NCBI RefSeq assembly: GCF_030555055.1
Contig: NZ_JAMOAO010000001.1
Coordinates: forward strand, 4,092,001 to 4,156,000
Direction of reading: 5' to 3'
DNA: 64,000 nt
Source: Nocardiopsis sp. YSL2
Lineage (GTDB): Bacteria > Actinomycetota > Actinomycetes > Streptosporangiales > Streptosporangiaceae
The position numbers were made by a program, and so were the translations under genes. Shown here piece by piece: positions 20,765 to 63,489 of the stretch. Every line of letters begins with the position of its first letter. Position 1 is the first letter of the stretch. The notes below the pieces were generated by a model. The model did not search any database. It saw nothing but the letters and a program-made list of their open reading frames with translations, and was not told the origin of the DNA.

Positions 20765-20789
20765 CGCACGGTAGCTGGAGGCTGGCAGG

Positions 20790-21950: not shown

Positions 21951-22172
21951 GTGGCTAGCTGGTGGAAGTCGTCGTACAGCTCCAACACTGGGGCTTGTAT
22001 GGAGGTGGCTGGCTGGCGCAAGAGCAGTCATTCCACAGCCAGCGGGGAGTGCGTGGAGGTGGCGGACATGGAGTCCGGTGCCCTCATCCGGGACTCCAAG
22101 CAGCCCGAGTTGGGGCACCTGTCCTTCGTCTCCGGTGAGTGGAGCCTGTTCCTCGCCTCGGTGAAGCTCTAG
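21951..22172 (+). CDS. DUF397 domain protein with reiterated N-terminal motif
   Basis: The coding sequence ends at 22172 and is in frame with the previous DUF397 gene, separated from it only by that gene's TAG. The motif W-K-S-S-(Y/H)-S...G-x-C-x-E-V-A occurs three times in a row: FRKSSYSGAGNNCIEVA (21910-21955), WWKSSYSSNTGACMEVA and WRKSSHSTASGECVEVAD, and then one complete second half (SGALIRDSKQPELGHLSF). Its second half is nearly identical in DNA to that of the neighbour, so it arose by duplication. No good ribosome site precedes the GTG at 21951; translation may start elsewhere, depend on coupling, or not occur. The 73-residue protein is therefore a minimum call. Confidence 0.65.
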   Translation: MASWWKSSYSSNTGACMEVAGWRKSSHSTASGECVEVADMESGALIRDSKQPELGHLSFVSGEWSLFLASVKL

Positions 22173-39987: not shown

Positions 39988-40075
39988 GCCCCCACCGGAC
40001 CGACGCGACGCCCGCACGCACGCGCACCACTGACCAACAGCGACAACGACACACGGCCGAGGCAGGTTACCCGCG

Positions 40076-40501: not shown

Positions 40502-40552
40502 CGACGGCGACCCGAAACGGTTCACAGGGATCATGAGAAGGTTGCCACTGAA

Positions 40553-40912
40553 ATGAGCTTCCGCAGGCGAAGGAGCAACCGCGTCCGCCCGTTCACCTTC
40601 ACAGGTGGCCGGACGCGATCGCGGCATCCGCTGATGGTGCAGACCCTGGTCTCGACCTCTGAGCCGGGCCAGGAACCACCGAGCACCCTCATGCCGGAGT
40701 CCATCAACATCTACCGACTGTGCCGAGAGACGCGGTCACTCGCTGAGGTGTCGGCCGAGTTGAACATCCCCCTGGGCGTCACCCAGGTCCTGATCAGCGA
40801 CCTGGCCGAACAGGACCTGGTGTACATCCACCCGACCATCACCGGCAGCAGTCCATCGGAAAACCAGGTTCTGGAGAGGGCTCTTCGTGGTCTCGAACGA
40901 CTTTTCCAGTGA
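40553..40912 (+). CDS. DUF742 protein (CvnC type)
   Basis: A 119-residue DUF742 protein, third conservon component. It starts with a basic segment (RRRRSNRVRPFTFTGGRTR), then YRLCRETRSLAEVSAELNIPLGVTQVLI, which has winged-helix character, then DLAEQDLVYIH. The RPFTFTGGRTR start is the family's usual GGRTRP-like opening. The function is unknown; a scaffold or adaptor role in the conservon is assumed in the literature. Its last 26 bases overlap the start of the GTPase gene, so the two are coupled. Confidence 0.9.
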   Translation: MSFRRRRSNRVRPFTFTGGRTRSRHPLMVQTLVSTSEPGQEPPSTLMPESINIYRLCRETRSLAEVSAELNIPLGVTQVLISDLAEQDLVYIHPTITGSSPSENQVLERALRGLERLFQ

Positions 40913-41492
40913 CAGCAGGTCGAATCGCAAGAAGATGTCGAGCAAGATCGTCATCGCCGGTGGCTTCGGCGCCGGCAAGACGACCTTGGTGAGCTCGGTG
41001 TCGGAGATTCCGCCGGTCACGACCGAAGCGATCATGACCGAGGCCAGCATCGGTCACGACGACAACTCGATCACACCGCACAAGACGACCACCACCGTCG
41101 CGATGGACTTCGGTCGCATCACCGTCGACGACGAACTGATCATGTACATGTTCGGAACGCCGGGCCAGGCGCGGTTCTGGTTCATGTGGGACGATCTCGT
41201 ACGGGGCGCGGTCGGCGCCGTCGTCGTGGTCGACTGCCGCAGGCTCGCGGACTCCTTCGACGCGGTGGACTACTTCGAGACGACCAAGCGCATCCCCTAC
41301 ATCGTCGCGCTGAACAAGTTCGAGGGCCTCCTCGAGTACAGCCCCGAACAGGTCCGCGAGGCGTTGGAGATCAGCCCGGAGGTGCCGATCATCGACTTCG
41401 ACGCGCGCCACCGGAGCTCCGGCGGCGACGTGCTCAAGACGCTGCTCCGGTACGCCCTCGAACACAACCGCGCGAGCGAACCCGTTGCCTGA
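40887..41492 (+). CDS. Ras-like small GTPase (CvnD type)
   Basis: A 201-residue GTP-binding protein. The P loop is GGFGAGKTT (residues 25-33), switch I carries the Thr-rich segment TPHKTTTTVAMDFG, switch II is GTPGQARFW near 90, and the NKxD position is LNKFE near 143 with Phe-Glu instead of the canonical x-Asp, a variation that is usual in this bacterial family. Conservon GTPases act with the roadblock and kinase-like proteins at the membrane. GTG 40887 has GGAGAGG upstream and the frame overlaps the DUF742 gene by 26 bases. The protein is soluble. Confidence 0.92.
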   Translation: MVSNDFSSDSRSNRKKMSSKIVIAGGFGAGKTTLVSSVSEIPPVTTEAIMTEASIGHDDNSITPHKTTTTVAMDFGRITVDDELIMYMFGTPGQARFWFMWDDLVRGAVGAVVVVDCRRLADSFDAVDYFETTKRIPYIVALNKFEGLLEYSPEQVREALEISPEVPIIDFDARHRSSGGDVLKTLLRYALEHNRASEPVA

Positions 41493-41560: not shown

Positions 41561-42826
41561 ATGCGCAAAATCCTTATCGTCGGCGCGGGCCACGCCGGTC
41601 TGCACCTGGCCCATGGCCTTCTGACCGAGGGCTATGACGTCACGGTGATCACGGGGCAGTCCTCGATGGAGATCCGGACCGGCAAGCCCTCGGTCTCGCA
41701 GCTCACCTTCCCGACGGCCCTGAACTACGAGCGTGAGCACAACCTGGACCTCTGGAGCGCACTGTCCCCGCAGATCAGGAACCAGAGGGTGCATCTGTAC
41801 CCGAGGGGGGACGAGGCCGTCCGCACCTTCACCGGCAGGACCGGAGAGGGCAACGACTACACGGTCTCGGTGGATCGCCGTGTCAAGATGGCCGACTGGC
41901 TGGAGTACTTCGAGGACCGCGGGGGCAAGGTGGTGATCCACGGCGTCACCGTCACCGACCTCGACTACTTCTCCCGCATGTTCGAACTGATCATCGTGGC
42001 CGTCGGCCACGGCGAACTCGGCCAGCTCTTCGACTACGACGAGAGCCGTTTCAGCGGGGCCAGGCCCCGCTCGATCGCGCAGGCCCAGATCTTCGACGTC
42101 TGGCCCTGGGACGGCGATGACGAGAACATCGGCTGGGCGGCGTCCGCGGCCGACGCGGGCAACATCATCTTCATCCCGATCCTCACGCAGGAGGGGCCCT
42201 GCCACAACCTGCTCATGGTGGACAAGCGCGGCGGCCCCATGGACGCCTGGCCCGACCGGCCGGGTCCCGAGGAGCAGCTCCGCCGGATGAAGGACCTGCT
42301 GCGCCAGTACGCGCCGGAGTACTTCGAGCGGGCCAAGGACGCGGTCCTGTCGGACGGTCGCAACAGCACGCTGGTCGAGGAGTTGACCCCGCAGGTCCGC
42401 AACCCGGTCGGTGTGCTGCCGTCCGGCGGGCGCGTGCTCGGCATGGCGGACGTGGTCGTCACGATGGACCCGTACGTCGGCCAGAGCTGGAACAACTCCA
42501 CCAGGTGTGCCAAGGCCTACCTGGAGAGCATCATCGAGCACGGTGACCGTGAGTTCGATGAGGAGTTCCTGGTCAAGACGTTCGACCGCTTCTGGGAGTT
42601 CGGCCTGCACAACCAGCTCTGGTCCGAAATGAATTCCACATTGTGGGATAGCGGTGATCTACCGCCCTATTTCTACGATCTCCTCGACGCGGCCAGGGAC
42701 TTCTCCGAAGTGGGGGACCGGTGGATCCAGGGGTGGGACTACCCGCCGGACTACGGGACCTGGCTGCTTGATCCCGACCGCGCGATGCAGTTCGTCGCCG
42801 AGGTTCGAGCGCGGTCGGGCTCCTGA
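41561..42826 (+). CDS. Styrene/indole-monooxygenase-like FAD protein (StyA family)
   Basis: A 421-residue flavoprotein of the StyA group, oxygenases that use FADH2 from a separate reductase to epoxidise aromatic alkenes or indole. The N-terminal Rossmann motif GAGHAG is at residues 8-13, followed by QSSMEIRTGKPSVSQLTFPT, a typical StyA segment. RVLGMADVVVTMDPYVGQSW near 290-310 is the second FAD motif with the DP of group E monooxygenases. No StyB-like reductase gene is in the window. It follows the conservon GTPase by 68 bases, with AGGAAAG before the ATG; StyA-like genes attached to conservons are common in actinomycetes, so it may belong to the conservon rather than to the PKS next door. 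A terminator follows. Confidence 0.85.
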   Translation: MRKILIVGAGHAGLHLAHGLLTEGYDVTVITGQSSMEIRTGKPSVSQLTFPTALNYEREHNLDLWSALSPQIRNQRVHLYPRGDEAVRTFTGRTGEGNDYTVSVDRRVKMADWLEYFEDRGGKVVIHGVTVTDLDYFSRMFELIIVAVGHGELGQLFDYDESRFSGARPRSIAQAQIFDVWPWDGDDENIGWAASAADAGNIIFIPILTQEGPCHNLLMVDKRGGPMDAWPDRPGPEEQLRRMKDLLRQYAPEYFERAKDAVLSDGRNSTLVEELTPQVRNPVGVLPSGGRVLGMADVVVTMDPYVGQSWNNSTRCAKAYLESIIEHGDREFDEEFLVKTFDRFWEFGLHNQLWSEMNSTLWDSGDLPPYFYDLLDAARDFSEVGDRWIQGWDYPPDYGTWLLDPDRAMQFVAEVRARSGS

Positions 42827-43347: not shown

Positions 43348-46300
43348 ATGACCAGTGACCATCCGTCCGGCGGGCCGGGGGGCCCGGAGGCCCCCGTCGC
43401 GGTGGTCGGAGTCTCCTGTCGGCTCCCGGGGGCGTCGACCCCCGAGGCCTTCTGGCGGCTCCTGTGCGAGGGCCGGGAGTCGATCACCGCGCCACCCGAG
43501 CGACTCGGCGTCTCCTCCGCCACCCGGGACGGCCACTGGGGCGGCTACCTCGACCGCCCCGAGGACTTCGACGCGGCCTTCTTCGGCATCTCCCCGCGTG
43601 AGGCGCTGGCCATGGATCCCCAGCAGCGCATCATGCTCGAACTCAGCTGGGAGGCCCTGGAGCGGTCCCAGACGGCACCGGACTCCCTGCGCGGGTCGGA
43701 CTGCGGTGTGTTCACCGGCGCGATCTCCTCCGACTACGCGGCTCTGCAGCAGAGTGCAGGCGGCGCGGGCATCACCCACCACTCGATGGCCGGGAACCAG
43801 CGCGGGATGATCGCCAACAGGGTCTCCTACGCCCTGGGCCTGTCCGGTCCCAGCCTGACCGTGGACAGCGGACAGTCGTCCTCCCTGGTCAGCGTCCACA
43901 TGGCGATGGAGAGCCTGCGCCGGGGCGAGTGCTCGACGGCGCTGGCCGGAGGCGTCAACCTGATCCTGACCCCGGAGGGCACGGAGAGCGCGGCCCGGTT
44001 CGGCGGGCTCTCCCCCGACGCGCACTGCTACACCTTCGACGCCCGGGCCAACGGCTACGCGCGGGGCGAAGGCGGTGCCGTGGTGGTCCTCAAACCGCTG
44101 GACCGGGCCGTGGCCGACGGCGACCCGGTGTACGCGGTCCTGCGCGGCGGCGCGGTCAACAACTCCGGCCGGACCCCCTACCTCGCGCACCCCGACGCAC
44201 AGGGCCAGCGGGAGGTCCTGGCCACCGCGCTGCGGCGGGCCGCGGCCGACCCCTCCCAGGTGGGCTACGTCGAACTCCACGGCACCGGCACCCCCGCGGG
44301 CGACCCGGTCGAGGCGGCCGCGCTCGGCGCGGTGTTCGCCCAGGGGCGGGAGGAGCCGCTGCGGGTGGGCTCGGTCAAGACCAACATCGGGCACCTGGAA
44401 GGCGCCGCGGGGATCGTCGGGCTGGTCAAGGCCGTGCTGAGCCTGTCCTACGGACAACTGCCGCCGACCCGGAACTTCGCCGAACCCCACCCCGACATCG
44501 ACCTGGAGGCGCTGCGGCTGAGCCCGCAGACGCGTCGCGAACCGTGGCCCGCGGAAGCGCCGCTGGCCGGTGTGTCCTCCTTCGGGATGGGCGGCACCAA
44601 CTGCCACCTGGTCCTCGGACCGCCCCCGCCGCCCAAGGCCGACCGCTCGGGCGCCATCACGGGGGAGACGGCCCTGGACCCCGTTCCGTGGGTGCTGTCG
44701 GCGCGGTCGGAGGAGGCGCTGCGCGCGCAGGCCTCGGCTCTGCACCACTTCGTCTCCGCCCGCCCCGGACTGCTCGCCCAGGACGTGGGCCTGTCCCTGG
44801 CCAGGACCCGCGCCGTCTTCGAGCACCGGGCCGTCATCTTCGCCTCCGGCGGCTCGGAGGCACGTGAACTGGAGGCCGTGCGCGCCGATCGGGCCGCCGG
44901 CTCCGCGGGACGGGCCCGGCCCGTGATGGTCTTCCCCGGCCAGGGCGGGCAGTGGCAGGGCATGGCCCGGGAACTGCTGGACGACAACAGCTCCCTGGCC
45001 CGGGCCTTCGCCACACGGCTGCGCGAGTGCGAACGGGCGCTGGACCCCTACGTGGACTGGTCCCTGACCCGCGTGCTGCGCGGCGAGCCCCAGTCCCCGC
45101 CACTCACCGGGACCGACGCCCGCGTGGACGTGATCCAGCCGGTGCTGTGGGCGGTGATGGTCTCCCTGGCCAGGGCATGGGCGGAACTGGGCGTCGAACC
45201 GGCCGCGGTGATCGGCCACTCCCAGGGGGAGATCGCCGCCGCGTGCGTCGCGGGGATCCTGACGCTGGAGGACGCGGCGCGGGTGGTGGCCCTGCGCAGC
45301 CGCGCTCTGACCGCGCTCGCGGGCAGCGGGGGGATGGCCTCGCTGGGGCTGTCGCCCGACCGCGCCGAGGCGCTGGCCGCCGCCGACCCCGAACTGCACC
45401 TGGCCGCCGTCAACGGCCCCGAGTCGGTCGTGGTCTCGGGGACGCCCGAGGCGGTGCGCCGCGCCGTGGAGCACTGCGCCGACGCGGGTGTGCACGGCTC
45501 GCTCGTGGACGTCGACTACGCCTCGCACTCCGCGCACGTCGAACGCATCCGCCAGGACCTCCTGGAACGCCTCGGCGAGGTCGTGCCCCGGCCCGGCCGG
45601 GTCCCGTTCTTCTCCACGGTCCTGGGCCGTCGGTCGGCACCGGACGACCCGCCCATGGACGCCGAGTACTGGTTCCGGAACCTCCGCGGCACGGTCCGGT
45701 TCGCCGACGCGGTGCGGGCCGCGGGCGGGTCCGGGCACACGTCGTTCATCGAGGTCGGCCCGCATCCCGTCCTGACGTTCGGTATCGAGCGCACACTGGC
45801 CGCGGACGGGATCGACGCGGCGGTCCTCAAGACCCTGCGGCGCGACTGCGGGGACCGGGCCCAGCTGCTCGCGGCGGCGGCTCAGGCGTTCACCGAGGGT
45901 GTGGACGTGGACTGGGAACGCCTGTTCCGCGGGACGGGGGCGCGCCGGATCGACCTGCCCACCTACGCCTTCCAGCGGCGGAGCTTCTGGCCGGGAGCCG
46001 AGCCGGAGCCCGAGCCCCGGGAGCGGGACGCCGCCGAGGACGGCACCAGGGACCTGGTCACCGCGCTCGTCGTGCGGGTGCTCGGACAGCGCGCGCTCTC
46101 CGCCGCCGACGAGCAACGGGCCTTTCGTGACCTGGGCTTCGACTCGGTCATGCTGCTCGAACTCGCGGCCAGGGTCAGGGACCGCACGGGTGTGCCCCTG
46201 GAGGCGACGACCCTGTTCGACCTGTCCACGCCCGCGGCCCTGGCCGACCACCTGGTCGCGGAGCTGGGTGAGAGGGTGCCGCTGACGTCCGCCGCCCCGG

Positions 46301-49300
46301 AGGACGCGGGCCCCGATCCCTCCGCTCCGGCCGCGCGGCCCCCGACGGTCCGGCCCGGCCGCACGGCCCCCGCTGTCACGGCACCCGTCCCCGACGACGA
46401 CCCGGTCGCCATCACGGCCATGGCCTGCCGGCTGCCGGGTGGAGTACGCACGCCGGAACAGCTGTGGCGGCTGGTCGAGGACGGCGTGGACGCGATCGGC
46501 GACTTCCCCGACAACCGCGGCTGGGACCTGCCGGGCCTGTACGACCCCGAACCCGGCACCCCCGGCCGGACCTACACGCGCTCCGGCGGCTTCCTCTACG
46601 ACGCCGACCTCTTCGACGCCGACTTCTTCGGCATCAGTCCCCGTGAGGCCGACGCCATGGACCCCCAGCAGCGGCTGCTGCTGGAGACCTCCTGGGAGGC
46701 CGTCCAACGGGCCGGAATGAGCACCGACGACCTGCGTGAACGCCAGGTCGGGGTGTTCGTCGGCGCGATGCCGACCGAGTACGGGCCGCGCCTGGCCGAC
46801 CAGGGCGACGGCGGCGACGGCGGCTACCGGCTGACCGGCAGCACCCTGAGCGTGGCCTCGGGCCGCATCGCCTACGTCCTGGGCCTGCGCGGACCGGCGA
46901 TGACCATCGACACCGCCTGTTCCGCCTCGCTCGTGGCCCTGCACCAGGCGGCCCAGGCCATCCGCCGGGGCGAGTGCGAGATGGCCCTGGCCGGCGGCGC
47001 CACCGTGATGGCCACCCCCGGTATGTTCCTGGAGTTCGCCGCCCAGCGCGGCCTGTCCCCGGACGGGCACTGCCGCGCCTTCGGTGCCGGGGCCGACGGC
47101 ACCGCCTGGGCCGAGGGCGCGGGCATGCTCCTGCTGGAGCGCGCTTCCCACGCCCGCCGGGCCGGCCGGCCCGTCCTGGCACTGGTCAAGGGCAGCGCGG
47201 TCAACTCCGACGGCGCCAGCAACGGGCTGACCGCACCCAGCCGCGACGCCCAGGAACGGGTGATCCGCCAGGCGCTGGCCTCGGCCGGGCTGGAGCCGGA
47301 CGAGGTGGACGCCGTGGAGGCGCACGGCACCGGGACCCGGCTGGGTGACCCGATCGAGGCCAAGGCGCTGATCTCGGTGTACGGCGCCGCCCGGACCGAC
47401 GGTCCCCATGAGGACCTGCGGCTGGGATCACTCAAGTCCAACATCGGACACGCGCAGGCCGCCGCCGGCGTGGCCGGGGTGATCAAGACCGTCGAAGCCC
47501 TCCGGCACGGGCGCCTGCCCCGGACCCTGCACGCGGAGGAACCCACCGGCCGGGTCGACTGGGACGGCAGCGGGGTACGCGTGCTCTCCGACGCCGAGCC
47601 ATGGCCGGACACGGGGCGCCCCCGCCGGGCCGCGGTGTCCTCCTTCGGAATCAGCGGGACCAACGCCCACGTGGTGTTGGAGGGCGTGGCCGACGAGGGC
47701 GCGCCCGTCACCGTGCCCGAGGACCCCTTCCGGCGCGAACGCCACTGGGTCACGCCGCCCGCCGCGGTCGCGGCCGTCCAGGCACCGCCGGCGGAACCGC
47801 TGATCGACGACGGGCTCGCCCTGGCCGACGGGCGCACGGTCTTCACCGGGCGCGTGGACCTGGACGGCCAGGCCTGGGCGCGCGACCACGGTGTGCTGGG
47901 CCGTGTCGTCGCCCCGGGCACCGCACTGGTGGACCTGGCCGCGCACGCGGGCGCGCGCGTGGGCGCGCCCACCGTCGCCGACCTGGTCCTGGAGGCGCCC
48001 CTGGTCCTGTCCCGCGGCCCGGGCCTCAGGCTCCAGGTCACCGTGGACGCCGCGGACGAGCGGGGCCGACGCGCACTGGCCGTGCACGCCCGTCCCGTGG
48101 ACGCGGCTCCGGACACGCCGTGGACCCGCCACGCGTCAGGGGCGGTGGCCGCGGCCGACGCCCCCGCGTCCGACACCGCGGGCGACCCCGCGCCTGCCTC
48201 CCCCTGGCCGCCGACGGCGGCCGAGTCGCTGGCCGTGTGGCCCGACTACGACCGCCTGGTCCGGCGCGGCTACTCCTACGGACCGCTCTTCCGGGGCCTG
48301 CGCGGCGTGTGGCGGCACGAGAACGAGCTGCTGGCCGAGGTCGAACCACCCGTGGTGTCCGCCGCCGGCGGCCCCTTCCACGGGCCGCACCCCGCCGTGG
48401 TCGACGCCGCGCTGCACGTGCTCCTCCTGCACGGCGGCGACGAGCGCTCCCTGCTGGTGCCGTTCGCCTGGTCGGGCGTGCGCGTGCGGCCCGCCGCCGA
48501 GGCCGCCGCGTCCCGTCGCCTGCGGGTGCGCGCGACCGAACTCGGGCCCGACCGGTACCGCCTCGCCCTCACCGACGAGTCCGGGGCCGAGGTCGTCTCC
48601 GTCGACGAGCTCGTCCTGCGCCCGCTCGACGAGGACGTCCTTCCGCCGCGCGATCCCGCCGAACTGCCGGGCCTGTACGAACTGGTCTGGGAGAAGGTCG
48701 ACGCGCCCCCGCCATCGTCGGCCATCCCCACCGGTCTGCCCGACCTCGAGGGGCTGGACCGGGACGGCACGGTGCCGCCGGTGGTCTACACCGAACTGCC
48801 CGCCGCGGCCGTCTACTCCGACGAGACGCACGTCCCCGACGCCGTCCGCCAGGGCCTCGACTCGGCCCTGTCGACCATCCGCGCCTGGCTGACCGACCCC
48901 CGCACCGAGCACGCCCGCCTGGTGGTGGTGACCTGGCGGGCCGTGGCCACCGACCCCGCCACCCGGCTCACCGGACTCGCCGCCGCCCCCGTGTGGGGCC
49001 TGCTGCGGGCGGCCCAGCGCGAGTACCCCGACCGGCTCGTTCTGGTGGACTCCGACGGGTCCGAGGACTCGCACCGGGTGGTCGCGGGTGCGGTCGGACT
49101 GGGCGAACCCCAGCTCGCGCTGCGCTCCGGCACGGTCCTGGTGCCCCGCCTGGTCAGGGCCGACTCCGACGACCGGCTGACACCGCCGGGCGCGCTGTGG
49201 CGGCTGGACACCCGCCGCCCCGGCTCCCTGAAGGACCTGGACCTGCTGCCCGCGCTGGAGGCCGGCGGTCCGCTCGGCCCGCAGGAGGTGCGTCTCGCCG

Positions 49301-51450
49301 TCCGTGCCGCCGGGGTGAACTTCCGCGACGTCGTGGTGGCGCTGGGCCTGGTCGAGAACGAGACGGGCATGGGCATCGAGGGCGCCGGCATCGTCCTGGA
49401 CACCGGCGCGGACGTGGTCGGCCTGAGCCCGGGCGACCGCGTCACCGGAATGTTCGACGGCGCGTTCGGCCCGGTCGCGGTCGCCGACGCCCGCAGGCTC
49501 GCCGCCATTCCGCGGGGCTGGTCGTTCGAACAGGCGGCGGCGGTACCGGTGGCCTTCCTGAGCGCCTACCACGGCTTGGTGGACCTGGCCGCGGTGCGTC
49601 CCGGGGACAGCGTCCTCGTGCACGCCGCCGCCGGCGGTGTCGGTACGGCCGCCGTGCAGTTGGCCCAGCACATGGGCGCGTCCGTGTTCGGCACGGCCAG
49701 CCCGCACAAGTGGGCCGGGCTCGCCGCCTACGGACTCGCCGAGGAGCGCCTGGCCTCCTCCCGCGACCTGGAGTTCGAGGAGCGGCTGCGCGAGGCCAAC
49801 GGCGGGCGCGGCATGGACGTCGTCCTCAACTCGCTCAGCGGTGAGTTCGTGGACGCCTCCCTGCGGTTGCTGCGGTCCCCGGGCGACGGCGACGGCCCCG
49901 GCGGCCGGTTCGTGGAGATGGGCAAGACCGACATCCGTACCTCAGAAGACGTCGCCGGCGCCTACCCGGGCCGCGGATACCAGGCGTTCAACCTGCCCGA
50001 CGTCGCCCCGGAACGCATCGGGCAGATGCTCACGCGCGTCATGGAACTGCTCGAGAGCGGAGTGCTCTCGCCGCCGCCGACCGTCGTCCACCCCCTGCGG
50101 TGCGCCCAGGACGCCCTGCGCTCGCTCCAGCGCGGCGAGAACGTCGGCAAGCTGGTGCTCACGGTGCCCGCCCCCTACCCGCAGGAGCGCACGACACTGA
50201 TCACCGGCGGCACCGGAACCCTGGGCCACCGGGTGGCCCGCCACCTGGTCACCGGCTACGGCGTACGGCACCTGCTCCTGATCAGCCGCAGCGGACCGGA
50301 GGCCGAGGGACAGGCCGCCCGCACCGCCGAACTCGAGGCGCTCGGCGCCCGGGTGGAGGTCGTGGCGTGCGACGCCGCGGACCGCCCCGCCCTGCGCGCG
50401 CTGCTCGCGCAACTCCCCGAGGACCGGCCGCTGGGGGCCGTGGTGCACACCGCCGGCGTGCTCGACGACGCCACCATCACCTCCCTCACCCCCGAGGGCA
50501 TCGACCGGGTCCTGCGCCCCAAGGTCGACGCCGCGTGGAATCTGCACGAGCTCACCGCCGACGCCGACCTGGGATCCTTCGTCCTGTACTCGTCGGCGGC
50601 GGGCGTGCTGGGCAACCCGGGGCAGGCCAACTACGCGGCGGCCAACGTCTTCTGCGACGCCCTCGCCCACCACCGGCGCGAGCGCGGACTCCCCGCCACC
50701 TCTCTGGCCTGGGGCCTGTGGGCGGGCGGGAGCGGGATGACCGCGCACCTGGACGACACCGACCTCGGCGTCCTCAGCAGGGGAGGGCTCGCACCGATGC
50801 CGCCCGAGGACGCGCTGGCCCAGTTCGACACGGCCCTGCTGTGGGGACTGGCGAACGGCGTCCCCGCGCTGCTGGAGCCCGTCGGTGCCGCCGACATCCC
50901 GGTCCTGCGCGGCCTGTTCGCGCCGGCGGGCACGGACGCGCCCGCTGGCGCGGGAACCAGTGCGGACGCCGGGTCCGGCGCCGCGCCCGCCGACCGGTTC
51001 GCCGGGCTGTCCGAGGCCGACCGCGAACGCGCCCTGCTCGCCGAGGTGCGCGCCCACACCGCCGTCGTGCTCGGCCACGCACCGGAGGACGGGCCCGCGC
51101 GGATCGCACCGGACCGGCCCTTCACCGAGCTCGGTCTGGACTCGCTCACCGGTGTGGAGCTGCGCAACCGGCTGAGCGCCGCGACGGGCGTGCGGGTCCC
51201 GGCCACCGCTGTCTTCGACCACCCGACCCCGCGCGCCCTGGCGCGCTTCCTGACCGGGCTGCCGTCCCCCGACGAGAAGGAGATCCTCTGGCAGGGGCAA
51301 GCCGGTCCCCGCTCTTCCGCATCCCCGGCGGACGCCGGTGAGCGGGAGCGGAACATCGACTCCATGGGGGTGGACGCTCTCGTGGACCTGGCCCTCCAGA
51401 GCGAGTCCCCAGCCGAACGTGGACAGGAGACAGCACATGACTTCCGATGA
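43348..51450 (+). CDS. Type I PKS: loading module KSQ-AT-ACP and module 1 KS-DH-ER-KR-ACP (no AT)
   Basis: A 2700-residue polyketide synthase. The loading KS has Gln176 in place of the active cysteine ([10 protein letters not shown]), so it decarboxylates rather than condenses. Its AT has GHSQG (Ser625) and YASH (724-727), the methylmalonyl-CoA signature, giving a propionyl starter; the ACP serine is Ser933. The module-1 KS is complete: Cys1191, His1326, His1368. It passes straight from [11 protein letters not shown] into PFRRERHW, the usual post-AT linker, so no AT is present. DH (His1514 in [10 protein letters not shown]; Asp1686), ER ([18 protein letters not shown] near 2093), KR (GGTGTLG near 2287; LDD; Tyr2429) and ACP (Ser2599) look active. 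A C-terminal docking helix ([14 protein letters not shown]) should pair with PKS 2. ATG 43348 has GGAG upstream; GTG 43330 is the alternative. Confidence 0.95.
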
Positions 51451-54400
51451 CCACCGTCTGGTCGCGGCGCTCAGGTCCGCTCTGAAGGAGAACGCGCGAC
51501 TGCGAGAGGAACTCGACCATGTCGCGCGGCCCGAGCCGATCGCCATCGTGGGGATGGGGTGCCGTCTGCCGGGAGGCGTCGGCTCTCCCGAGGCACTGTG
51601 GGATCTGGTCGTCCACGGGCGGGAGACCGTGGGACCGCTGCCCGACGACCGCGGGTGGGACCTGGCGGCACTGCGAGGCGAGGGCGGCCACGCGCCGAGG
51701 TCGTCGATGGCCCAGGGGTCCTTCCTCGACGCGGCGGCCGACTTCGACCCGGGGCTCTTCAGCATCTCCCCCCGCGAGGCCGAAGCCATGGACCCCCAGC
51801 AGCGCCTGCTCCTGGAAGTGGCGTGGGAGAGCCTGGAGCGTGCCGGGATCAGCCCGTCCTCGCTCAGGGGGACCGACACGGGGGTGTACGTCGGCACGAC
51901 CAGTCCGGAGTACGGGCCCCGGCTGTCCCAGGCGCCGGAGGACGGTCTGGCGATGACCGGTACCGCCCTCAGCGTCGCCTCCGGCCGCATCTCCTACGCA
52001 CTGGGCCTCACCGGACCGGCGATCAGCACGGACACGGCCTGCTCGTCCTCGCTGGTGGCCGTGCAACTGGCGGTGCGCGCACTGCAGGCGGGGGAGTGCA
52101 CCCTGGCCCTGGCCGGCGGGGCGACGGTGATGTCCTCTCCCGGGCCGCTCACGGAGTTCACCCATCTGGGCGGGCTGGCGGCGGACGGCCGCTGCAAGGC
52201 CTTCGGCGCGACCGCCGACGGCGCGGGCTTCTCCGAAGGCGTCGGCCTGGTGACCCTGGAGCGGCTGTCCGACGCACGCCGCAACGGACACCGGGTCCTG
52301 GCGGTCATCCGGGGAGGGGCGATCAATCAGGACGGCGCCTCGAACGGTCTCACCGCGCCCAACGGGCCCTCTCAGGTCCGGGTGATCCGCAAGGCCCTGG
52401 CCGACGCCGGGCTGAGGCCGGAGGACGTCGATCTGGTGGAGGCGCACGGTACGGGAACCACGCTCGGAGACCCCATCGAGGCGCAGGCGCTGCTGACCGC
52501 CTACGGGCAGGAGAGGCCGGCCGACCGCCCCCTCTGGCTGGGATCGCTCAAGTCCAACGTCGGCCACGCCCAGGCCGCGGCGGGTGTGGCGGGGCTCATC
52601 AAGGTGGTGGAGTCCCTGCGCCACGGGGTGCTCCCCAGGACGCTGCACGCCGACGAGCCCACACCGCACGTGGACTGGGAGTCGGGAGCGGTCCGACTGC
52701 TGACACGGGAGCGGACCTGGCCGCGGACGGACCGCCCCAGACGGGCCGGCATCTCGTCGTTCGGGATGAGCGGCACCAACGCCCACGTCATCGTCGAACA
52801 GGCCCCGGAGGTGACGGAGGAGCCGCGTCCGGTGCGTGCCGCCGCTCCTCGGCGGAGCCTGCCGTGGATCCTGTCGGCACGGGACGACGAGACGCTGCGC
52901 GCGCAGGCGGCCCGCCTGCGGGACCACGTCCTCGACCACCCGGAGACGGATCCGGCCGACACAGGATGGTCGCTCGCCGCAACCCGGGCCCCACTCGAAC
53001 ACCGTGCCGTCATCGTCGCCGAGGACCGTGCGGCCTTCGCCGCGTCACTGCGGGCCTTGGCGGAGGGGCGCCCGGACTCCAGTACGCTGCTCGGCCGGGC
53101 CGGCAGTGATCGTCGGCCCGTCTTCGTCTTCCCCGGCCAGGGCGGCCAGTGGGCCGGCATGGCGGTCGAACTCATGGACACCTCCCCGGGGTTCGCGCAG
53201 CGGCTGGCCGAGTGCGAGGAGGCGCTGGCGCCCTTCGTCGACTGGTCCCTCACGGATGTGCTGCGCCAACGGGCGGGCACCGCCGCGACGGAACGCGTGG
53301 ACGTCGTTCAGCCGGTGCTGTGGGCCGTCATGGTCTCGCTCGCCGAACTGTGGAGTGGCCACGGAGTGCGGCCGACGGCCGTGGTCGGGCATTCCCAAGG
53401 AGAGATCGCTGCGGCCTGCGTGGCCGGCGCACTCTCGTTGGAGGACGCCGCGAAGGTCGTGGCGCTGCGCAGCAGGGCACTGCTGGAGTTGTCGGGCACC
53501 GGGGCGATGGCTGCGGTCGCCCAGGGGCCGGACGATGTCGCCGAGCGCATCGCCGGCCTCGGCGCGAGCGTTCATCTGGCGGCGGTCAACAGCCCGGCGT
53601 CGACGGTGATCGCCGGGGAACCGGAGGCTGTGCGCTCACTGGTCGAGGAGTACGAGGCCACGGGGGTGAGGGCACGGGCGATCGCGGTCGACTACGCGTC
53701 GCACACCCCGCACGTCGCCCGGATCCGCGAACGGTTGGGCAGGGAACTCGCGGGGATCAGCCCGCGTCGGCCGGACATCCCGATGTACTCGACCCTCACC
53801 GGAGAGCGGCTGGACGAGACCGCGCTGGATGCCGACTACTGGTACCGGAACCTGTCGAACCCGGTCGAGTTCGCCGAGGTGACCCGCGTTCTGCTGCGGG
53901 ACGGGCACGACGTGTTCGTGGAGGTGGGCCCGCACCCCGTGCTGGCCGCGCACGTCCAGGAGACCGCGGAGTCGCACGGTGCTCCGGACACGGTCGTCCT
54001 GGGCACGCTCCGCCGTGACGACGGGGGCTCCCGGCGCTTCACGGCCTCGCTCGCGGAGGCGCACTGCCACGGTGTCGACGTCGACTGGACCGGGGCGTTC
54101 GGTGAGGCCCCCCGTGTCGTGGACCTGCCCACCTACGCCTTCCGGCGTCGGCGCTTCTGGAGGGCGGGAGGCGGAGACGGCTCCGCGACCGGTGCCGGGG
54201 CCCTTCCGGCCGCCACCGACGGCGGAGCGGGTTCCGACCCCGCCTCGGACTGGGTCTACCGGGAGGACTGGGTACCGGTCGACGCGGTCGACGGACCGGT
54301 CGCGCCCTCCGGGACCTGGCTGCTGTTCGGCGCGGAGCCGTCGGACCCGGTCGTCACCGACATGGTCGCGGCGTTCGAGCGCGAGGGGTGCCGGGCCCGG

Positions 54401-56203
54401 GTCGTGGACGCGCCGGCCTCCGTCGACCGCGAGGGTCTGGCCGACCTCCTCGTCGATGCCCGAAGGAGCACGGACACGATCGCCGGTGTCGTGGCACTCC
54501 ACTGCCTGAACGCGGCCGACCGGGGCGACGGTGTCACCCGCCCCACGGCCTCCACCGCCCACCAGAGCACCGTCCTGCTCCTGCAGGCCCTCGGTGACGC
54601 CGCGCTCACGGCACCTCTGTGGTGCGTGACCCGAGGTGCCGTCCCCGCCGGGGGCGCGGTGAACGACCCCTCGTCGGCCCTGGTGTGGGGGCTGGGCCGG
54701 GTCGCCGCACAGGAACACGGCGACCGGTGGGGCGGCATGGTCGACCTGCCGTCCGCGGACGCGCCGGACGCGGGAGAGACCCTCGTCTCGGTCCTGACCG
54801 GGCACAGGGGTGACGCCGAGGACCAGCTCGCGATCCGTGACGGCGCGATCCTGGCGCGCAGACTCGTGCGGGCCCCCATCGGCCGGACCCGTGCCGTCCG
54901 GCGGTGGGAGCCCTCCGGCACGGTGCTGGTCACGGGTGGCACCGGGGCTCTGGGCGCGCACACCGCTCGCTGGCTCGCCCGGCGTGGCGCGGAACACCTC
55001 CTCCTGCTGAGCCGGCGGGGGACGGAGGCTCCGGGGGCCCGGGCCCTGGAAGCGGAACTGCGTTCGACGGGGGCCGAGGTCACGATCGCCCCGTGCGACG
55101 TCGCCGACCGCGCCGCTCTCGCCGCCGTCCTGGACCGGGTGCCCGAGAAGTACCCGCTGCGTGCCGTGGTGCACACCGCCGCCTCCCTGGACGACGGCGC
55201 GATCGACGACCTCACCCCTGACCAGGTGGCGTGCGCGCTGCGCGCTAAGGGCGACGCGGCGGTGCACCTTCACGAGCTCACCCAGGGCATGGACCTGTCG
55301 GCGTTCGTGGTGTACTCCTCGGTCTCCGCGGTCTTCGGCGTGACCGGCCAGGGCAACTACGCGCCGGGCAACGCCTTCTGCGAGGCACTGGTGCATCACC
55401 GGCGCTCGCTCGGGCTCCCGGCCACCTCGATCTCCTGGGGAGCCTGGGCCGGCGGCGGCATGGCCGAGGACACGGCCGTGGCCGAGCTGCTGCAGCGACA
55501 CGGGCTTCCGACCATGGATCCGGACACCGCGATCACGATGCTCGAACGCGCGCTCGACCGCGATCTGCCCGCGCTCGCCGTCGCGGACGTCGACTGGCCC
55601 CGGTTCCGCGCGGCGTTCACCGTCAACCGGCCCAGCCCCCTGCTGCGTGACCTCGGCCCCTTCTCCGCCGAACACGGGACCCCCGACCGGGCCGTCACCG
55701 GTGGCCTGGAGCAACAGCTGTCCGGGCTCGGCCGGGCCGGGCGCCGGAGGGTGCTCACCGAGCACGTGCGCCGTGAGGTCGCCGCCATCCTCGGCTACGC
55801 CTCCGGGGACGTGCTGGACGACGACCGCGGATACAAGGAGCTGGGGATGGACTCGGTGACCGCCATCGAGTTGCGCAACCGGATGTCCGCGCTCACCGGG
55901 CTCAGCCTGCCCGCCGGCCTCGCGTACTCCCACCCGACGTGTGCGGCGCTCGGCCGACACCTGGAGGAGCGACTGTTCGGCGATACCCAGCACATCGTGA
56001 TGACGCGGATCGACAGCATCGAGGAGGCCCTGACCGAGGACGAGGACTCGGCCATGGACCGCGGGGCCGTCGCCCGGCGGTTGCAGGACCTGCTCGAGCG
56101 GCTCACCCCGCGGCAGGAGCGGGTGGACGCGGTCGACAAGGATCTGGAGTCCGCGAGCAGGGAAGAGCTGTTCGCCTTCATCGACGACGCTCTGCGTGAC
56201 TGA
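51437..56203 (+). CDS. Type I PKS: module 2 KS-AT-KR-ACP
   Basis: A 1588-residue PKS extending the chain by one unit and reducing the beta-keto group to a hydroxyl. An N-terminal docking coiled coil ([19 protein letters not shown]) comes first. The KS has Cys202 (DTACSSSLV), His337 and His377. The AT has GHSQG with Ser653 and YASH at 753-756, so methylmalonyl-CoA. There is no DH or ER. The KR has GGTGALG near 1167, the B-type LDD motif ([13 protein letters not shown]) and Tyr1308 in NYAPGN, predicting a D-configured alcohol. The ACP serine is Ser1473 (LGMDSV). A long C-terminal docking region ends the protein ([20 protein letters not shown]). The ATG overlaps PKS 1 by 14 bases and has AGGAGA upstream. 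Confidence 0.95.
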
Positions 56204-56278
56204 CCGTGTTCCCGACCCCCTGACCTCTCCGCGATCCGTCATGGGTCGTGGACCACGCGAATCGGTGAGGCGACATCA

Positions 56279-58189
56279 ATGACGGAAGACACGCGGCTGC
56301 TCGACTACCTCAAGCGGGTCACCGCCGACCTGCGCCGTACGCGGGCCGAACTGGACAGCCTGCGTTCGCGCGACGCCGAGCCGATCGCGATCGTGGGCAT
56401 GGGCTGCCGGCTCCCGGGAGGGGCGGACACACCGGAAGCGCTGTGGAACCTGCTGCGGGACCGCGTCGACGCGGTCGGTGACCTGCCGGCCGACCGGGGA
56501 TGGGACCTGGACTCCGTGGTGGACCGCCCCGGCGCGACCCGGGCGGGCGGCTTCCTGGACGATGTGGCCGGGTTCGACGCGGAGTTCTTCGGGATCTCGC
56601 CCCGTGAGGCGGCGGCCATGGATCCGCAACAGCGCCTCATGCTCGAAGTGTCCTGGGAGGCGATCGAGCGGTCGGGCATCGACCCCTCCTCCCTGGCCGG
56701 GAGCGCGACGGGCGTGTTCACAGGGATCAGCGCCACCGACTACGCGGGAGGCGCGGCCTCGGGTGCGCTCCCCGTCCCCGACGAGGCGCAGGGGTACCTG
56801 CTGACGGGGACCGCCCCGAGTGTCGCCTCCGGTCGCGTGGCGTACACGCTGGGGCTGGACGGGCCCGCGCTGACCGTCGACACGGCCTGTTCCTCCTCCC
56901 TGGTGGCCATCCACCTCGCGGTGCGCGCGCTGCGCCGGGGCGAGTGCTCCATGGCCCTGGCGGGTGGCGCCACGGTGATGACGGCTCCGGCGCTGTTCAC
57001 GGAGTTCGCCAGGCAGGGAGGGCTCTCCGGCGACGGCCGCTGCAAGTCGTTCGGTGCGGACGCGGACGGCGCGGGGTTCGCCGAGGGCGCCGGTGTGGTG
57101 GTGCTGGAACGGCTCGCGGACGCCCGTCGGGACGGACACCGCGTCCTCGCGGTGATCCGGGGGAGCGCGGTCAACCAGGACGGCGCCTCCAACGGGCTGA
57201 CGGCTCCCAACGGGGCCGCACAGGTGCGTGTGGTCCGCGCGGCCCTGGACGACGCCGGTCTGTCCGCGGGCGATGTCGACGCGGTGGAGGCACACGGCAC
57301 GGGCACGGAACTGGGTGATCCGATCGAGGCCCAGGCCCTCATCGACGTCTTCGGGCCGGACCGCGGCACGGGCACGGTGGGAGTCGGTTCGCTCAAGTCG
57401 AACATCGGGCACACCCAGGCCGCGGCGGGAGTGGCCGGCCTCATCAAGATGGTGCTGGCGCTGGAGCACGGGTTCCTCCCCGCGTCCCTGCACTCCGAGG
57501 CGGCCACGCCGCTGGTGGACTGGTCGTCGGGGCGGGTCCGCGTGCTCTCCGAACCGAGGGCCTGGCACCGTGGCGAGCGAACGCGCCGGGCCGGCGTGTC
57601 CTCGTTCGGCATCAGCGGTACCAACGCCCACGTCATCGTCGAGGAGGCTCCGCAGGAGGTGCCCGACGAGTCGGCGGAGGCGCCCGCGCTCACGGACGGT
57701 TCCCTGCCCTGGGTCCTGTCCGCGCGTTCCGCGCCGGCCCTGAGGGACCAGGCGGTGCGCCTGCTCGGGCACCTGGAGACCGCGTCCGAGGCGGAACCGG
57801 CCGGAATCGCCCGCGCCCTCGCCACGACCCGGACGGGCTTCGCGCATCGGGCCGTGGTCGTCGGGTCCGCCGGCGACACCCTGGCGGAAGGAGTCCGAGC
57901 GCTGTCGGAGGGGCGGTCCACCGGCGGTGTCGTCACGGGGAGCGCCGGGCGGGTCGACTCGACCGTGTTCGTGTTCCCCGGCCAGGGCGGGCAGTGGGCC
58001 GACATGGCCCGCGGGCTCCTGGGGTCCTGCCGCGTGTTCGCGGAGGCCGTCGACACCTGCGAGGCGGCACTGGCGCCGTTCGTCGACTGGTCCCTGACGG
58101 CGGTGCTGCGCGCGGTGACCCCGGCGCTCCGGACGTGGTCGGCGCGGATGCCCGCGTGGACGTGGTGCAACCTGTGCTGTGGGCGGTGA
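56279..58189 (+). CDS. Type I PKS module 3, 5' part: docking, KS and start of AT (frameshifted)
   Basis: The 5' 636 codons of the third PKS gene. A docking coiled coil ([20 protein letters not shown]) precedes a complete KS with Cys204, His339 and His378. The KS-AT linker and the first 60 residues of the AT follow ([18 protein letters not shown]). After [14 protein letters not shown] at about 58123 the frame leaves the AT and runs into a stop at 58187. The AT sequence continues without a gap in another frame from 58123 ([17 protein letters not shown]). Restoring one base, most simply a G in CCCCGG near 58121-58125, joins both parts into one gene of 56279-63489. Sequencing error or real mutation cannot be told apart here. 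Confidence 0.9.
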
Positions 58190-61100
58190 TGGTGGCGCTC
58201 GCACGTGTGTGGGAATCGGCGGGAGTGGTTCCGACCGCTGTGGTGGGCCACTCCCAGGGTGAGATCGCCGCCGCCTGCGTCGCGGGCGCCCTGTCGCTGG
58301 AGGACGGCGCCCGGGTCGTGGCCGTGCGCAGCGCACTGCTGAGGGACCTGGCCGGACACGGGGCCATGGCGGCGGTCGCCGTCGGACCCGACCGTGCGGC
58401 GGAGATGATCGCTCCCTGGAAGGGGCGGATCGGCGTGGCCGCGGTGAACGGTCCCGCGTCGACCGTCCTGTCAGGGGACGACGAGGCCGTGGCGGAACTC
58501 GTCGCCACCTGTGCCGAGGAGGGCGTGCACGTCAGGCGGGTGGACGTGGACTACGCGTCGCACTCGGCCCACGTGGAGCGGATCCGGGACGACCTCCTGT
58601 CGGCCCTGGCGGACATCCGGCCCCGCAGGGCACGGCTGCCGATCCGTTCGACGGTCGCACCGTCCACGGAGTGGTCGCGGGGATCCTCTCCGCGCGGTGA
58701 GCGGATGGAGGGGACCGAGTTCGACGCGGAGTACTGGTATCGCAACCTTCGCCATCCGGTGCTCCTCGCACCGGTGATCGAGGAGCTCTCCGGCCGTCCC
58801 GGAGCCTTCGTCGAGGTCAGCCCGCATCCGGTGCTGGCCCTGGCGATCGAGCAGACGCTGGAGTCGGCCGACCGCACCGATCGAGCGGTGCTCTCCACGC
58901 TGCGGCGCGGTGAGGGAGGAGCCGCACGGCTCCAGACCGCTCTGGCCGAGGCCCACTGTGCCGGAGTCGACGTCGACTGGGCACGGGTCATCGGAGGTGC
59001 GGGCGCCAGCCGGCCCGCGCCGGCACTGCCCACCTACCCGTTCCAGCGCCGCCGCCACTGGCTGACCGACTCCCGGCCGTCGGCCGACCCCGCCGCTCTG
59101 GGGGTGGAAGGGGCCGGGCACCCGCTCCTCGGAGCCAGGGTCCCCGTCGCCGACACCGGACAGACGCTGTTCACGGGTGTGCTCGACGCCGGCCGGGAGG
59201 GCTGGCTCGCCGAACACACGATCGGTGGACGGGTGCTCCTGCCCGGAACGGCCGTGGTGGAACTGTTCCTGCACGTCGGACGCGAGTGCGGATGCCCCGA
59301 GATCGCCGACCTCACTCTCACGGAACCGGTGGAGATCCCGTCCGAGGAGAACGCGCCCGGGCTTCGGATCCAGGTCATGGTCGACACGCCCGACGCCACG
59401 GGAGGGCGGGCCGTGCGCCTGCGGTCGCTGGAGCCCGGCGAGCAGACCTGGAGGCTCCACGCGGAGGGCGCCCTGGTGCCGGAGACCCGGCAGCGGCCGG
59501 CTCCCGACACGGCGCGGGGCGGCGGTGCCGTGGAACTGCCGGCCGACGGCGCCTACGAGCTGTTCGCCGAGCACGGTTACGAGTACGGTCCGGCCTTTCG
59601 CGCATTGCGTGACGCGTGGGAGGACGGGACCGGGCTGGGGGCCGAGATCGAACCGGGAGCCGTCCCGCGCGGCGCCGCGCGCATGGCGGGCCCGCACCCC
59701 GTCCTGACCGACGCGGGACTGCAGGCGCTCCTGCTGAGTCACCTGTGCTCCAACGGTGGACGGGACCGGCCACTGCCGTACTCCTGGAGCGGGGTACGCC
59801 TGCACACATCCGAGACGCCGTCCCGGCTGCGCGTTCGCGCCGCGCGGACCGGGCCCGACACATGGGCCGTGGCGTTCACCGGCCCCGACGGTACTCCGGT
59901 GATGTCCGTCGACAGTCTCATGGTGCGCCACGCCCCGGCGCCGGACGGGACGTCCACCCCTGCCCTCTTCCACCAGGACTGGATCGAACTGGAGTGGACC
60001 GGAGACGCGGCCGACCGGGCACCCGGCGGTGCCTGGGCGGTGCTGGGCGACGGCGGGCCGACGGGCGCGACCAGGTACGCCTCCGCGGACGAGCTGGCGT
60101 CGGCGCTGGATTCCGGTGCGCCCGCACCGGACCTGCTCGTTGTGCCGGCGGGCGGTGGCGACGGGGCCGCCCCCGAGCGGACCAGAGCCGAGCTGCTGCG
60201 CGTGCTGGACCTCGTGCACCGCTGCCTGGACGACGACCGCCTCGGTGCCACGAGGATCGCGATCCTCACCGATGGAGCGGTCCGACCGGAGCGGACGGGC
60301 GACGCCCGCCACGTGGACGTGGCCGGGGCGGCGGTCTGGGGCCTGGTCTCCTCCGCGGAGACGGAGAACCCGGGGCGCTTCCTTCTCGTGGACTCCGACC
60401 GGGTCGACGAGCCTCTGGTCGCCCTCATGTCGGAGACCGGCGAGCCGCGGGTGGCCGTGCGCGACGGACGCGCGTACGCTCCACGACTGGCCGAGACCGA
60501 GACCGAGGCCGACGGCGGCGGCCTGGGGCTGCCGCAGCGCCGCACGGACTGGCGGCTGGACTTCCGCGGGACGGGAGGTATCGACGACCTGGTCGCGGTG
60601 CCCGACGGCGAACAGGGCAGGCCTCTGGCCGCGGGCGAGATCCGGGTCGCCGTGCGCAGCGCCGGGATCAACTTCCGCGACGTGCTGATGGCCGTCGGGA
60701 TGTACCCGGAACCGGCCGGCATCGGCAACGAGGGTGCCGGGACCGTCCTGGAGGTCGGTCCGGGCGTGGACGACCTCGCGATCGGAGACCGGGTCATGGG
60801 GATCTTCCCCGGAGCCTTCGCCCCCTGCGCCGTCGTCCGGCGCGAACGAGTGGTACGGGCTCCGGAGGGGTGGGACGACGCCTCGGCGGCCGCCGTTCCC
60901 GCCGCCTATCTGACCGCCTATCTCGCCCTGGTGGAGGAAGCCGGCCTCCGTCCGGGCGAGCGGGTACTCATCCATTCGGCGGCCGGTGGTGTGGGACAGG
61001 CCGCGGTGCACATCGCCCAGCACCTGGGGGCCCGTGTGCTGGCCACCGCCAGCCCGGAGAAGTGGGACGTACTGCGGTCGATGGGCGTGGCGCGCGAACA

Positions 61101-63489
61101 CCTCGCGCACTCCCGCCGACTCGATTTCGAGGAGGATCTCCGGGCGGGTTCCCCGCCCGTGGACGTCGTCCTGAACTCGCTCACCGGCGAGGCGATCGAC
61201 GCGTCCCTGCGGCTGATGGCGCCGGACGGGCGCTTCGTGGAGCTGGGGCGCAACGACGTCCGTGATCCGGCCCGTGTGGCGGCCGACCACGGCGGAGTCG
61301 AGTACCGGACCTTCGACCTCTCGACCCTGGACGCGGACCGCCTGCAGCGGGCCTACGGGGCGATCGTTCCCCTTCTGGAGAAGGGGGAGCTCCCCGGTGT
61401 CGACGTCACCCGCTTCCCCGTCGAGCGGGCCGTGGACGCCTTCCGCCTCATGCAGCGGGGCGGCAATGTCGGCAAGGTCGTCCTCGACATGGCCGCACGG
61501 TTCCGTCCCGGCGGCACCGTTCTCGTGACGGGGGGCACGGGGACGCTCGGCGCACTGGTGGCACGCCATCTCGTGGTCCGGCACGGTGTCACCAGCCTCC
61601 TCCTGGTGGGACGGCGCGGTCCGGACGCTCCCGGTGTCTCAGCGCTCGCCGACGAGTTGACCGGATGGGGCGCGCGGGTCCGTGTCGAGGCATGCGACGT
61701 GGCCGATCCGCAGCAGGTTCGCGCGCTCCTGAGCGATCTGTCTCCGGCGCACCCCCTGACCGCGGTCGTCCACGCCGCCGGCGTGGTCGGCGACGCCACC
61801 GTCGCCGGGCTCGGCCCCGATCTGCTGGAGCGGGTCCTGCGGCCCAAGGTCGACGGTGCGTGGAACCTGCACGAGGCCACGGTCGACCACGACCTCGACG
61901 CCTTCGTGCTGTTCTCGTCGGCGGCCGGGGTGTTCGGCTCGGCCGGTCAGGCCGGATACGCCGCGGCGAACGCCTTCCTGGACGCCCTCGCGCTCCACCG
62001 CCGCTCCCTCGGCCTGCCGGCCCAGTCGCTGGCCTGGGGCCGGTGGGAGGGCAGGAGCGGCATGACCGGCGGCCTCGGGGACGCCGAGACCGCTCGCATG
62101 GCGCGCTCCTGGGGCATGGAGGGGATGAGCGACGACGAGGGATGCGCCCTCATGGACGCCGCGGCGGCCACGGGACGGGCGCACCTGCTTCCGGCGGCGA
62201 TCGACCTACCGGGGCTCCGCGCGCGATCGGCGTCGACGGGCCCGGTTCCGGCCCTCCTTCGCGGGCTGGTGGGCGGCCCGGCCCGGGCCGCCACGGCCGG
62301 CGACCCCGCGGGAGGGGACCGGTTGCGCGACGCACCGGCCGGCCGGAAGCGCCGGGCACTGCTCGTCGAACTGATCGGTGAGCGTGCGGCCGAGATCCTC
62401 GGCCACACCGGCGGGCAGCGGCTGGAGCCGGACCAGGACTTCCTGGAATCGGGATTCGACTCGCTGACGGCCGTCGAACTCCGCAACCGCCTGGGAGAGG
62501 CCACGGGGCTCCGCCTGCCCGCCGCGGTCGTCTTCACCCATCGGACACCGAGCACCCTGGCGAAGCACGTGGACGACGCGCTGGCGGGGCCGGGCGCCGG
62601 GGCGGCGCCGGGGCCCGCTCACGACGCCGAAGACCTCGTGGACCTGTTCCGGGAGGCCTGTGCGGCGGGCCGGGCCGAGGACGCGATCGATCTCGCCCGG
62701 ACGGCGGCCCGGACCCGTCCGGTCCTGGCCTCAGACGACGCCTGGCCGACCCCGCTGACCGCGCTCTCCTCAGGTCCCCGGCGTCCCGTGCTGATCTGTG
62801 TCCCCTCACTGGTGATGACGTCGGGGAGCCAGGAGTTCGCCCGCTTCTCCGAGGCGTTCCGGGGCCGACACGGCGTCCGGGTCCTGGAGATGCCGGGCTT
62901 CCTCAACGGCGAACCGCTGCCCGCCGATCGGACGGTCGTCGCCCGAGGACTCGCCGCCGCCGCTCTACGCGCGGCGGACGGAGAACCGTTCGTCCTGCTC
63001 GGGCGATCGTCCGGAGGGTGGGCGGCGCACGTGGCCGCGGAGGAGCTGTGCCGCCAGGGACGGCCACCGTCGAAACTCGTACTGCTCGACACACCTCTGC
63101 CGGACGAACCGGGCGTGCTGCCGATCGTCACGGAGGCGGTGAACGCGCGCGCTCGGGAGTTCGGACTGATGGACACGGCCAGGCTCACGGCGATGGGCGC
63201 CTACCTGGGCATGTTCGCCCACTGGAGCCCGGCGGCGCTGCCCTGCCCGACCACGCAGGTCCGGCCGGCCGGCCCGATCCGTGTGGCGGACGGACGGGAG
63301 CTGGGCCGGGGATGGGAGTGGCCCGGCGGACACGAGCGCGTCGAGGTTCCCGGCGACCACCTCACCATGCTGGAAGCGCACGCGGACACCACGGCGGAAG
63401 CGGTTCTGGAGGCCCTGCGCGGCGCGAGGCAGCGACGGAGGGGCTTCGGGGGCCGGCGCTGGATGCGCGCAAGGAGGAACCGGGTCTGA
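58123..63489 (+). CDS. Type I PKS module 3, 3' part: AT-DH-ER-KR-ACP-TE (after frameshift)
   Basis: Continuation of module 3. The AT has GHSQG (Ser codon 58252-58254) and YASH (from 58552), so methylmalonyl-CoA. The DH has [10 protein letters not shown] (His codon 59215-59217) and TDAGLQ with Asp at 59710-59712. The ER has [14 protein letters not shown] and [12 protein letters not shown]. The KR has GGTGTLG, a VGD variant of LDD, and Tyr in GYAAAN (61957). ACP serine codon 62461-62463. The C-terminal thioesterase has [13 protein letters not shown] (Ser codon 63007-63009, G-x-S-x-G) and PGDHLTML (His 63358-63360). Module 3 should reduce its beta-carbon fully and release the chain as acid or lactone. 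No convincing start codon exists for this part alone, so it depends on correcting the frameshift. Confidence 0.9.

Follow-up and report, generated by a model that had tools for sequence, protein, structure and literature searches.

The window analysed here, a stretch of 64,000 nucleotides of the Nocardiopsis sp. YSL2 genome (6.42 Mb in 4 contigs), carries on its forward (+) strand a collinear type I polyketide synthase (PKS) of three genes, for which Pfam gave the domain order KSQ-AT-ACP / KS-DH-ER-KR-ACP / KS-AT-KR-ACP / KS-AT-DH-ER-KR-ACP-TE (loading module and extension modules 1 to 3; Table 1). A preliminary description had placed this PKS at 43348-63489 and read from it a product with the planar structure of invictolide, a lactone of fire-ant queens. 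The coordinates fit, and we recovered the KSQ loading module (VDSGQSSS) with a methylmalonyl-type AT (GHSQGE, YASH), the DH-ER-KR sets of modules 1 and 3, the KR as sole reductive domain of module 2 and the terminal TE (GRSSGG) that it had listed. The Gln of KSQ is present in all 38 genus sequences aligned, and in the window an AT and an ACP come next. The statement that YASH occurs in all ATs is true of the three that exist, which all read GHSQGE and YASH (the latter a methylmalonyl-specific motif of the DEBS ATs; PMC6164871, in excerpt), and passed over the fact that module 1 has no AT. Collinear modules with KS, ACP and reductive domains, closed by a TE, characterize the locus as a modular type I PKS (with gene 3 in two frames), and of the extension modules only 2 and 3 combine KS, AT and ACP as the cis-AT type does throughout. 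A docking domain opens gene 3 (Pfam), further docking-like ends were read from the translations, and the start of gene 1 is most likely the ATG at 43348, as judged from its translation.

Table 1. The PKS and its conserved upstream neighbours, in window coordinates.
Feature	Position	Strand	Remarks
Upstream operon	36583..41492	+	HATPase_c protein, Roadblock protein, small protein (40553-40912), GTPase-like protein; conserved neighbour
StyA-like flavin monooxygenase	41561..42826	+	conserved neighbour
PKS gene 1	43348..51450	+	loading module KSQ-AT-ACP and AT-less module 1 KS-DH-ER-KR-ACP; ORF 43330-51450, Pfam
KSQ of loading module	43387..44679 (ends approximate)	+	VDSGQSSS
AT of loading module (AT_L)	44926..45906	+	methylmalonyl-type (GHSQGE, YASH); sole AT of gene 1, residues 533-859 by Pfam
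ACP of loading module	46042..46254 (approximate, by eye)	+	two PP-binding stretches counted in gene 1 by Pfam
KS1	46399..47694 (end approximate)	+	Cys-His-His intact
KS1-DH1 junction	47695..47796	+	place where an AT would be; short linker with PFRRERHW
DH1	47797..48642	+	Pfam and motif
ER1	49276..50160	+	Val at stereo position, HAAAGGVG
KR1	50191..50724	+	LDD, YAAAN
ACP1	51046..51252	+	Pfam
PKS gene 2	51437..56203	+	module 2, KS-AT(YASH)-KR(B2 motifs)-ACP; start ATG 51437 by reading; overlaps end of gene 1
PKS gene 3, first frame	56279..58189	+	docking domain, KS3, start of AT3
PKS gene 3, second frame	57994..63489	+	remaining AT3 (YASH), DH, ER (Tyr), KR, ACP, TE
Thioesterase	62791..63405	+	GRSSGG

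In module 1, the GTNAH motif of KS1 and the motif of DH1 are 77 residues apart, and only a short linker lies between the two domains; its PFRRERHW stretch resembles a post-AT linker. The distribution of this arrangement was assessed with a junction query of 142 residues in 40 Nocardiopsis genomes, one per species. The query matched all 40, within a single frame and from its residue 1 to at least residue 140 in 35 of them, while the junction of G009 lies in two adjacent frames and that of G022 is cut by contig ends. Domain mapping placed KS1 directly before DH1 in 36 genomes (91-127 bases between the domain matches) and an AT before DH1 in three (G002, G006 and G037), with G022 split. Among 200 genomes sampled from the family (at most 20 candidates per genome scored), the full junction was found in all 11 of Nocardiopsis and, at E 1e-20, in none of the 189 from outside the genus, 30 of which matched in part, from query residue 9 or further on, and the rest not at all (139 no-match genomes were counted without names). 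In a homologue search with the junction, 6850 of 8000 scored candidates passed, and 22 of the 120 matches listed span the whole query, among them 17 from named organisms, all Nocardiopsis, and the window's own. The best-matching loci in named genomes (L011-L028 of 78 loci) belong to this genus as well, and loci of other genera, among those listed, mostly show the KS-AT order. The counts in the 40 genus genomes supersede an earlier motif scan, whose too strict pattern found the junction in 19 of 22 loci. By these comparisons, the lack of an AT in module 1 is a trait of the genus Nocardiopsis, and since it is conserved across the genus, a local deletion or an assembly error is ruled out as the cause of the absent AT.

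Some form of the cluster was present in all 40 species genomes searched, and three layouts were read from the domain map, with four genomes left unassigned at contig ends. Type A (14 genomes) resembles the window in having a KR in module 2, and the ER of module 3 (ER3) could also be read in 11 of its members; in type B (19 genomes) module 2 is without KR, and module 3 is a DH-KR without ER in 17; type C (3 genomes) lacks the loading ACP and KS1. The type B loci (e.g., L012, L014, L016-L020, L022, L023) have the same AT-less first protein, their AT2 motifs read YASH, FAAH, RAFH or HAFH, their AT3 motifs include VASH, IASH, VAGH, IAGH and LISH, and PKS logic suggests that their products are small pyrones. 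The type C loci (L119, L120 and L121) read KSQ-AT-DH-ER-KR-ACP with a decayed KR1, and L121 has degenerate AT motifs as well. A tree of KSQ and AT_L (which leaves out G019 and G024, as they have no usable KSQ-AT pair, and includes the stray fragment G022b) mixes types A and B, e.g., G000 (A) beside G001 (B) with support 1.0; it groups G002 with G006 (1.0) and places G037 weakly (0.41-0.52). Type C nests within one of two clades (support 0.99), both of which hold KS1 in their other members, and because of this nesting it looks derived.

Of the 8 AT matches in the genome of the window strain, four belong to the cluster (AT3 being in two pieces) and two to another PKS; a further one is part of a 1945-residue frame, and a sole stand-alone AT is found at 359808-360665. 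A KS within a 539-residue frame is 1.6 kb away from the latter, and by size and place the pair looks like FabD and FabF. No stand-alone AT was present among the ten cluster neighbours scanned; hence, with a FabD-like enzyme as the genome's only stand-alone AT, a dedicated trans-AT was set aside. Within the genus AT_L reads YASH in 38 of 39 readable genomes, and the motifs of AT2 and AT3 vary. In G002 and G006, ACP1 is the sole ACP on the chain that carries AT_L; if these lines are functional, AT_L must therefore be able to transfer to ACP1. We reason that AT_L probably charges both the loading ACP and ACP1, i.e. that the first module borrows the AT of the starter unit.

In the assembly that we propose, KSQ would decarboxylate methylmalonyl to a propionyl starter and, since module 1 has no AT of its own, AT_L would also charge ACP1 with methylmalonyl, which KS1 would use for the first extension and KR1, DH1 and ER1 would reduce fully. 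Module 2 would add methylmalonyl and leave a hydroxyl (2S,3R by motifs), module 3 would add methylmalonyl with full reduction, and after release by the TE the 5-OH would close on C1 (enzymatically or spontaneously) to an invictolide-type delta-lactone, C12H22O2. A propionyl starter, three methylmalonyl extensions and these reductions give, by PKS logic, 5-hydroxy-2,4,6-trimethylnonanoic acid, the lactone of which has the invictolide constitution. We consider it likely that the type A form of this genus-wide PKS makes both the acid and the lactone with AT_L in dual service; for the window strain, the product is a prediction from its domains.

The planar product agrees with the literature: invictolide is named tetrahydro-3,5-dimethyl-6-(1-methylbutyl)-2H-pyran-2-one (PMC12940258, in excerpt), and a review (PMC7699178, in excerpt) assigns its compounds 60 and 61 to Nocardiopsis tangguensis, with reference to Sato et al. 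(2011, J. Antibiot. 64:385) on 3,6,7-tri-epi-invictolide and its analogue. Methylmalonyl at module 1, which the preliminary description had assumed for what is an AT-less module, fits this reported lactone. The finding of that description is real, and better founded than the sequence alone could tell, while the headline compound class was already reported from Nocardiopsis. A gene cluster for the Nocardiopsis tri-epi-invictolide was not found in the excerpts of open-licence literature searched, where the term 'epi-invictolide' occurs only in PMC7699178; new, as far as searched, are the candidate gene cluster, its genus-wide presence and the AT-less first module.

Stereochemical motifs allow a closer comparison. 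The KR of module 2 (KR2) shows LDD and a Pro after the catalytic Tyr in all 13 type A sequences aligned and, by eye, also the Gln and His features listed for B2 KRs (PMC11228615, in excerpt), predicting 2S,3R. By the ER rule that links Tyr to 2S (PMC5331325, in excerpt), ER3 with its Tyr is predicted to give 2S and ER1 with its Val 2R. As the ER3 residue differs among the 11 type A genomes in which it was read (7 Tyr, 3 His in G025, G027 and G031, 1 Thr in G022), the configuration at C3 may vary within the type. Stereocontrol by ER domains is said to have been treated by Kwan in 2008. Taken together, the motifs predict 3S,5R,6R,7R in the lactone (CIP labels mapped by hand, without software). 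Taking invictolide as 3R,5R,6S,7R makes the tri-epi compound 3S,5R,6R,7S; against these labels the prediction matches tri-epi-invictolide at three of four centres, where the KR2 motifs and the ER3 Tyr agree with it, and invictolide at two. The type A lactone is most likely a diastereomer such as 3,6,7-tri-epi-invictolide. Identity with the ant lactone is not borne out, since the predicted stereochemistry differs, and a role towards ants is unsupported; PMC12940258 (in excerpt) itself speaks of no further evidence of queen compounds as specific queen-identity signals.

Should module 1 be skipped or dead, the line would make a triketide, a reading to which the missing AT and the three type C genomes without KS1 and loading ACP lend some colour. 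We regard it as very improbable: wherever KS1 is present and readable the catalytic residues of the module are intact (KS1 Cys in 34/34 readable genomes; Tyr and Asn of the KR1 YxxxN motif in all 34 with KS1 and a readable KR1), and KR1 has decayed in the genomes without KS1 (0/3 keep the motif). This joint retention and loss indicates that module 1 works. The NADPH motif of ER1 is intact in all 14 type A genomes, so that a saturated side chain is expected, and is lost in six of type B (G003, G008, G012, G028, G033, G039) and in G037. It is quite unlikely, to our judgement, that AT_L recharges the loading ACP and that KS1 condenses with the methylmalonyl held there instead of on ACP1, a variant of the proposed assembly; AT_L does adjoin the loading ACP and our analysis does not separate the two routes, but ACP1 occurs in all layouts wherever the sequence extends that far, and it is the only ACP of the chain in type C. 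The FabD-like AT might also charge module 1 in trans with malonyl, leading to 5-hydroxy-2,4-dimethylnonanoic acid and its 6-butyl-3,5-dimethyl lactone. This is unlikely, as AT_L sits on the same chain and is of the methylmalonyl type in nearly all readable genomes, and the reported Nocardiopsis lactone has, by title, the invictolide skeleton, even though no stand-alone AT other than the FabD-like enzyme was found in this genome, a stand-alone malonyl AT was proposed to complement the missing ATs of haliamide (PMC6274090, in excerpt) and ER1 is without the Tyr linked to 2S-methyl products.

A doubtful but sizeable chance is that the cluster is a broken relic making nothing in the window strain, which would be compatible with the proposed assembly for the genus. 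Gene 3 is not one open frame, AT3 being split between two frames near 58115-58150, and ten type A relatives (G010, G017, G021, G022, G025, G027, G030, G031, G032, G034) keep AT3 whole in one frame of 2355-2578 residues; on the other side, the three genes are otherwise open and complete in their motifs, and a single frame change can be a sequencing error. Several points weigh against dual service by AT_L and the tri-epi-like lactone as its outcome. Gene 3 of the window strain is either frame-broken or mis-sequenced, and the G009 cluster (genome 84% complete) has several broken frames as well; the three KR1 losses may amount to only one or two events; AT_L is degenerate in G037; and it is from sequence that we infer the loading of ACP1 by AT_L, just as genus and constitution are what link the predicted product to the reported lactone. 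Furthermore, ER1 has Val in 14/14 type A genomes, which predicts R at the side-chain methyl where tri-epi-invictolide, by the configurations taken above, would be S, and the match at three of four centres is weak, considering that with either enantiomer allowed chance gives at least three matches in 10/16 cases (hand arithmetic).

The PKS is preceded by the operon of Table 1, which we take to be of the conservon type, and by the StyA-like monooxygenase in each of the 19 named loci for which upstream DNA was available (the count covers 22 of 24 Nocardiopsis loci, 3 of them without upstream DNA); on the downstream side, 11 of the 22 have an HrpA match. The occurrence of the cluster in all 40 genomes, together with these constant neighbours, points to a function in the biology of the genus itself more than to an occasional antibiotic. 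More tentatively, one could picture AT_L charging the starter and first extension carriers genus-wide while the later modules were repeatedly exchanged, yielding small lactones and pyrones that may act as a genus-level signal or volatile, with type A sharing the constitution of the ant queen lactone. The locus provides a candidate gene cluster for a bacterial lactone with the flat structure of a fire-ant queen compound. It also offers a naturally occurring example, fixed at the level of a genus and furnished with natural loss controls, in which one AT probably serves two carrier proteins within a line that is otherwise of the cis-AT type.

The StyA-like monooxygenase was matched in 60 of 120 family genomes at 1e-60, 4 of the 60 being Nocardiopsis; with relatives this common in other genera it was set aside as a tailoring enzyme and kept as a neighbour. 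An IS110-family transposase lies at 64826-66082 (L009:1826-3082) in the window strain, downstream of the PKS and an alcohol dehydrogenase gene, and within the window the G+C content dips to 0.637 at 20001-22000 (neighbours 0.728 and 0.740). A second large PKS on the minus strand of the same genome (G000:C1:2556001-2584308; L168, L169) starts with formyltransferase-like and AMP-binding domains and has six KS to two AT, so that it too contains modules without AT.

Compared with known systems, the locus shares the KSQ-AT-ACP loading module, the collinear modules and the terminal TE with cis-AT modular PKSs of the KSQ-loading kind, and differs from them in a first extension module without AT. Elsewhere, missing ATs are complemented by stand-alone ATs (PMC6274090, PMC10394414, PMC11907408, all in excerpt); in the open-licence literature searched, likewise in excerpt, we found no description of a loading AT that serves the following module. 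An AT-less module that needs another AT is common to our PKS and the trans-AT or mixed cis/trans-AT lines, e.g., haliamide (PMC6274090, in excerpt), whereas here the ten neighbours hold no stand-alone AT and the genome a single FabD-like one. Within the genus, the nocapyrones of Nocardiopsis alba (ncpA-D; PMC4110758) are likewise small polyketide pyrones from a type I PKS, although nocapyrone L was hypothesised to arise from a starter derived from an amino acid and from malonate extenders (PMC4113818, in excerpt), unlike what we predict for the window PKS. The closest counterpart is 3,6,7-tri-epi-invictolide, which shares both the genus and the constitution of the predicted planar product and departs from the prediction, by the labels used here, in its configuration at C7.

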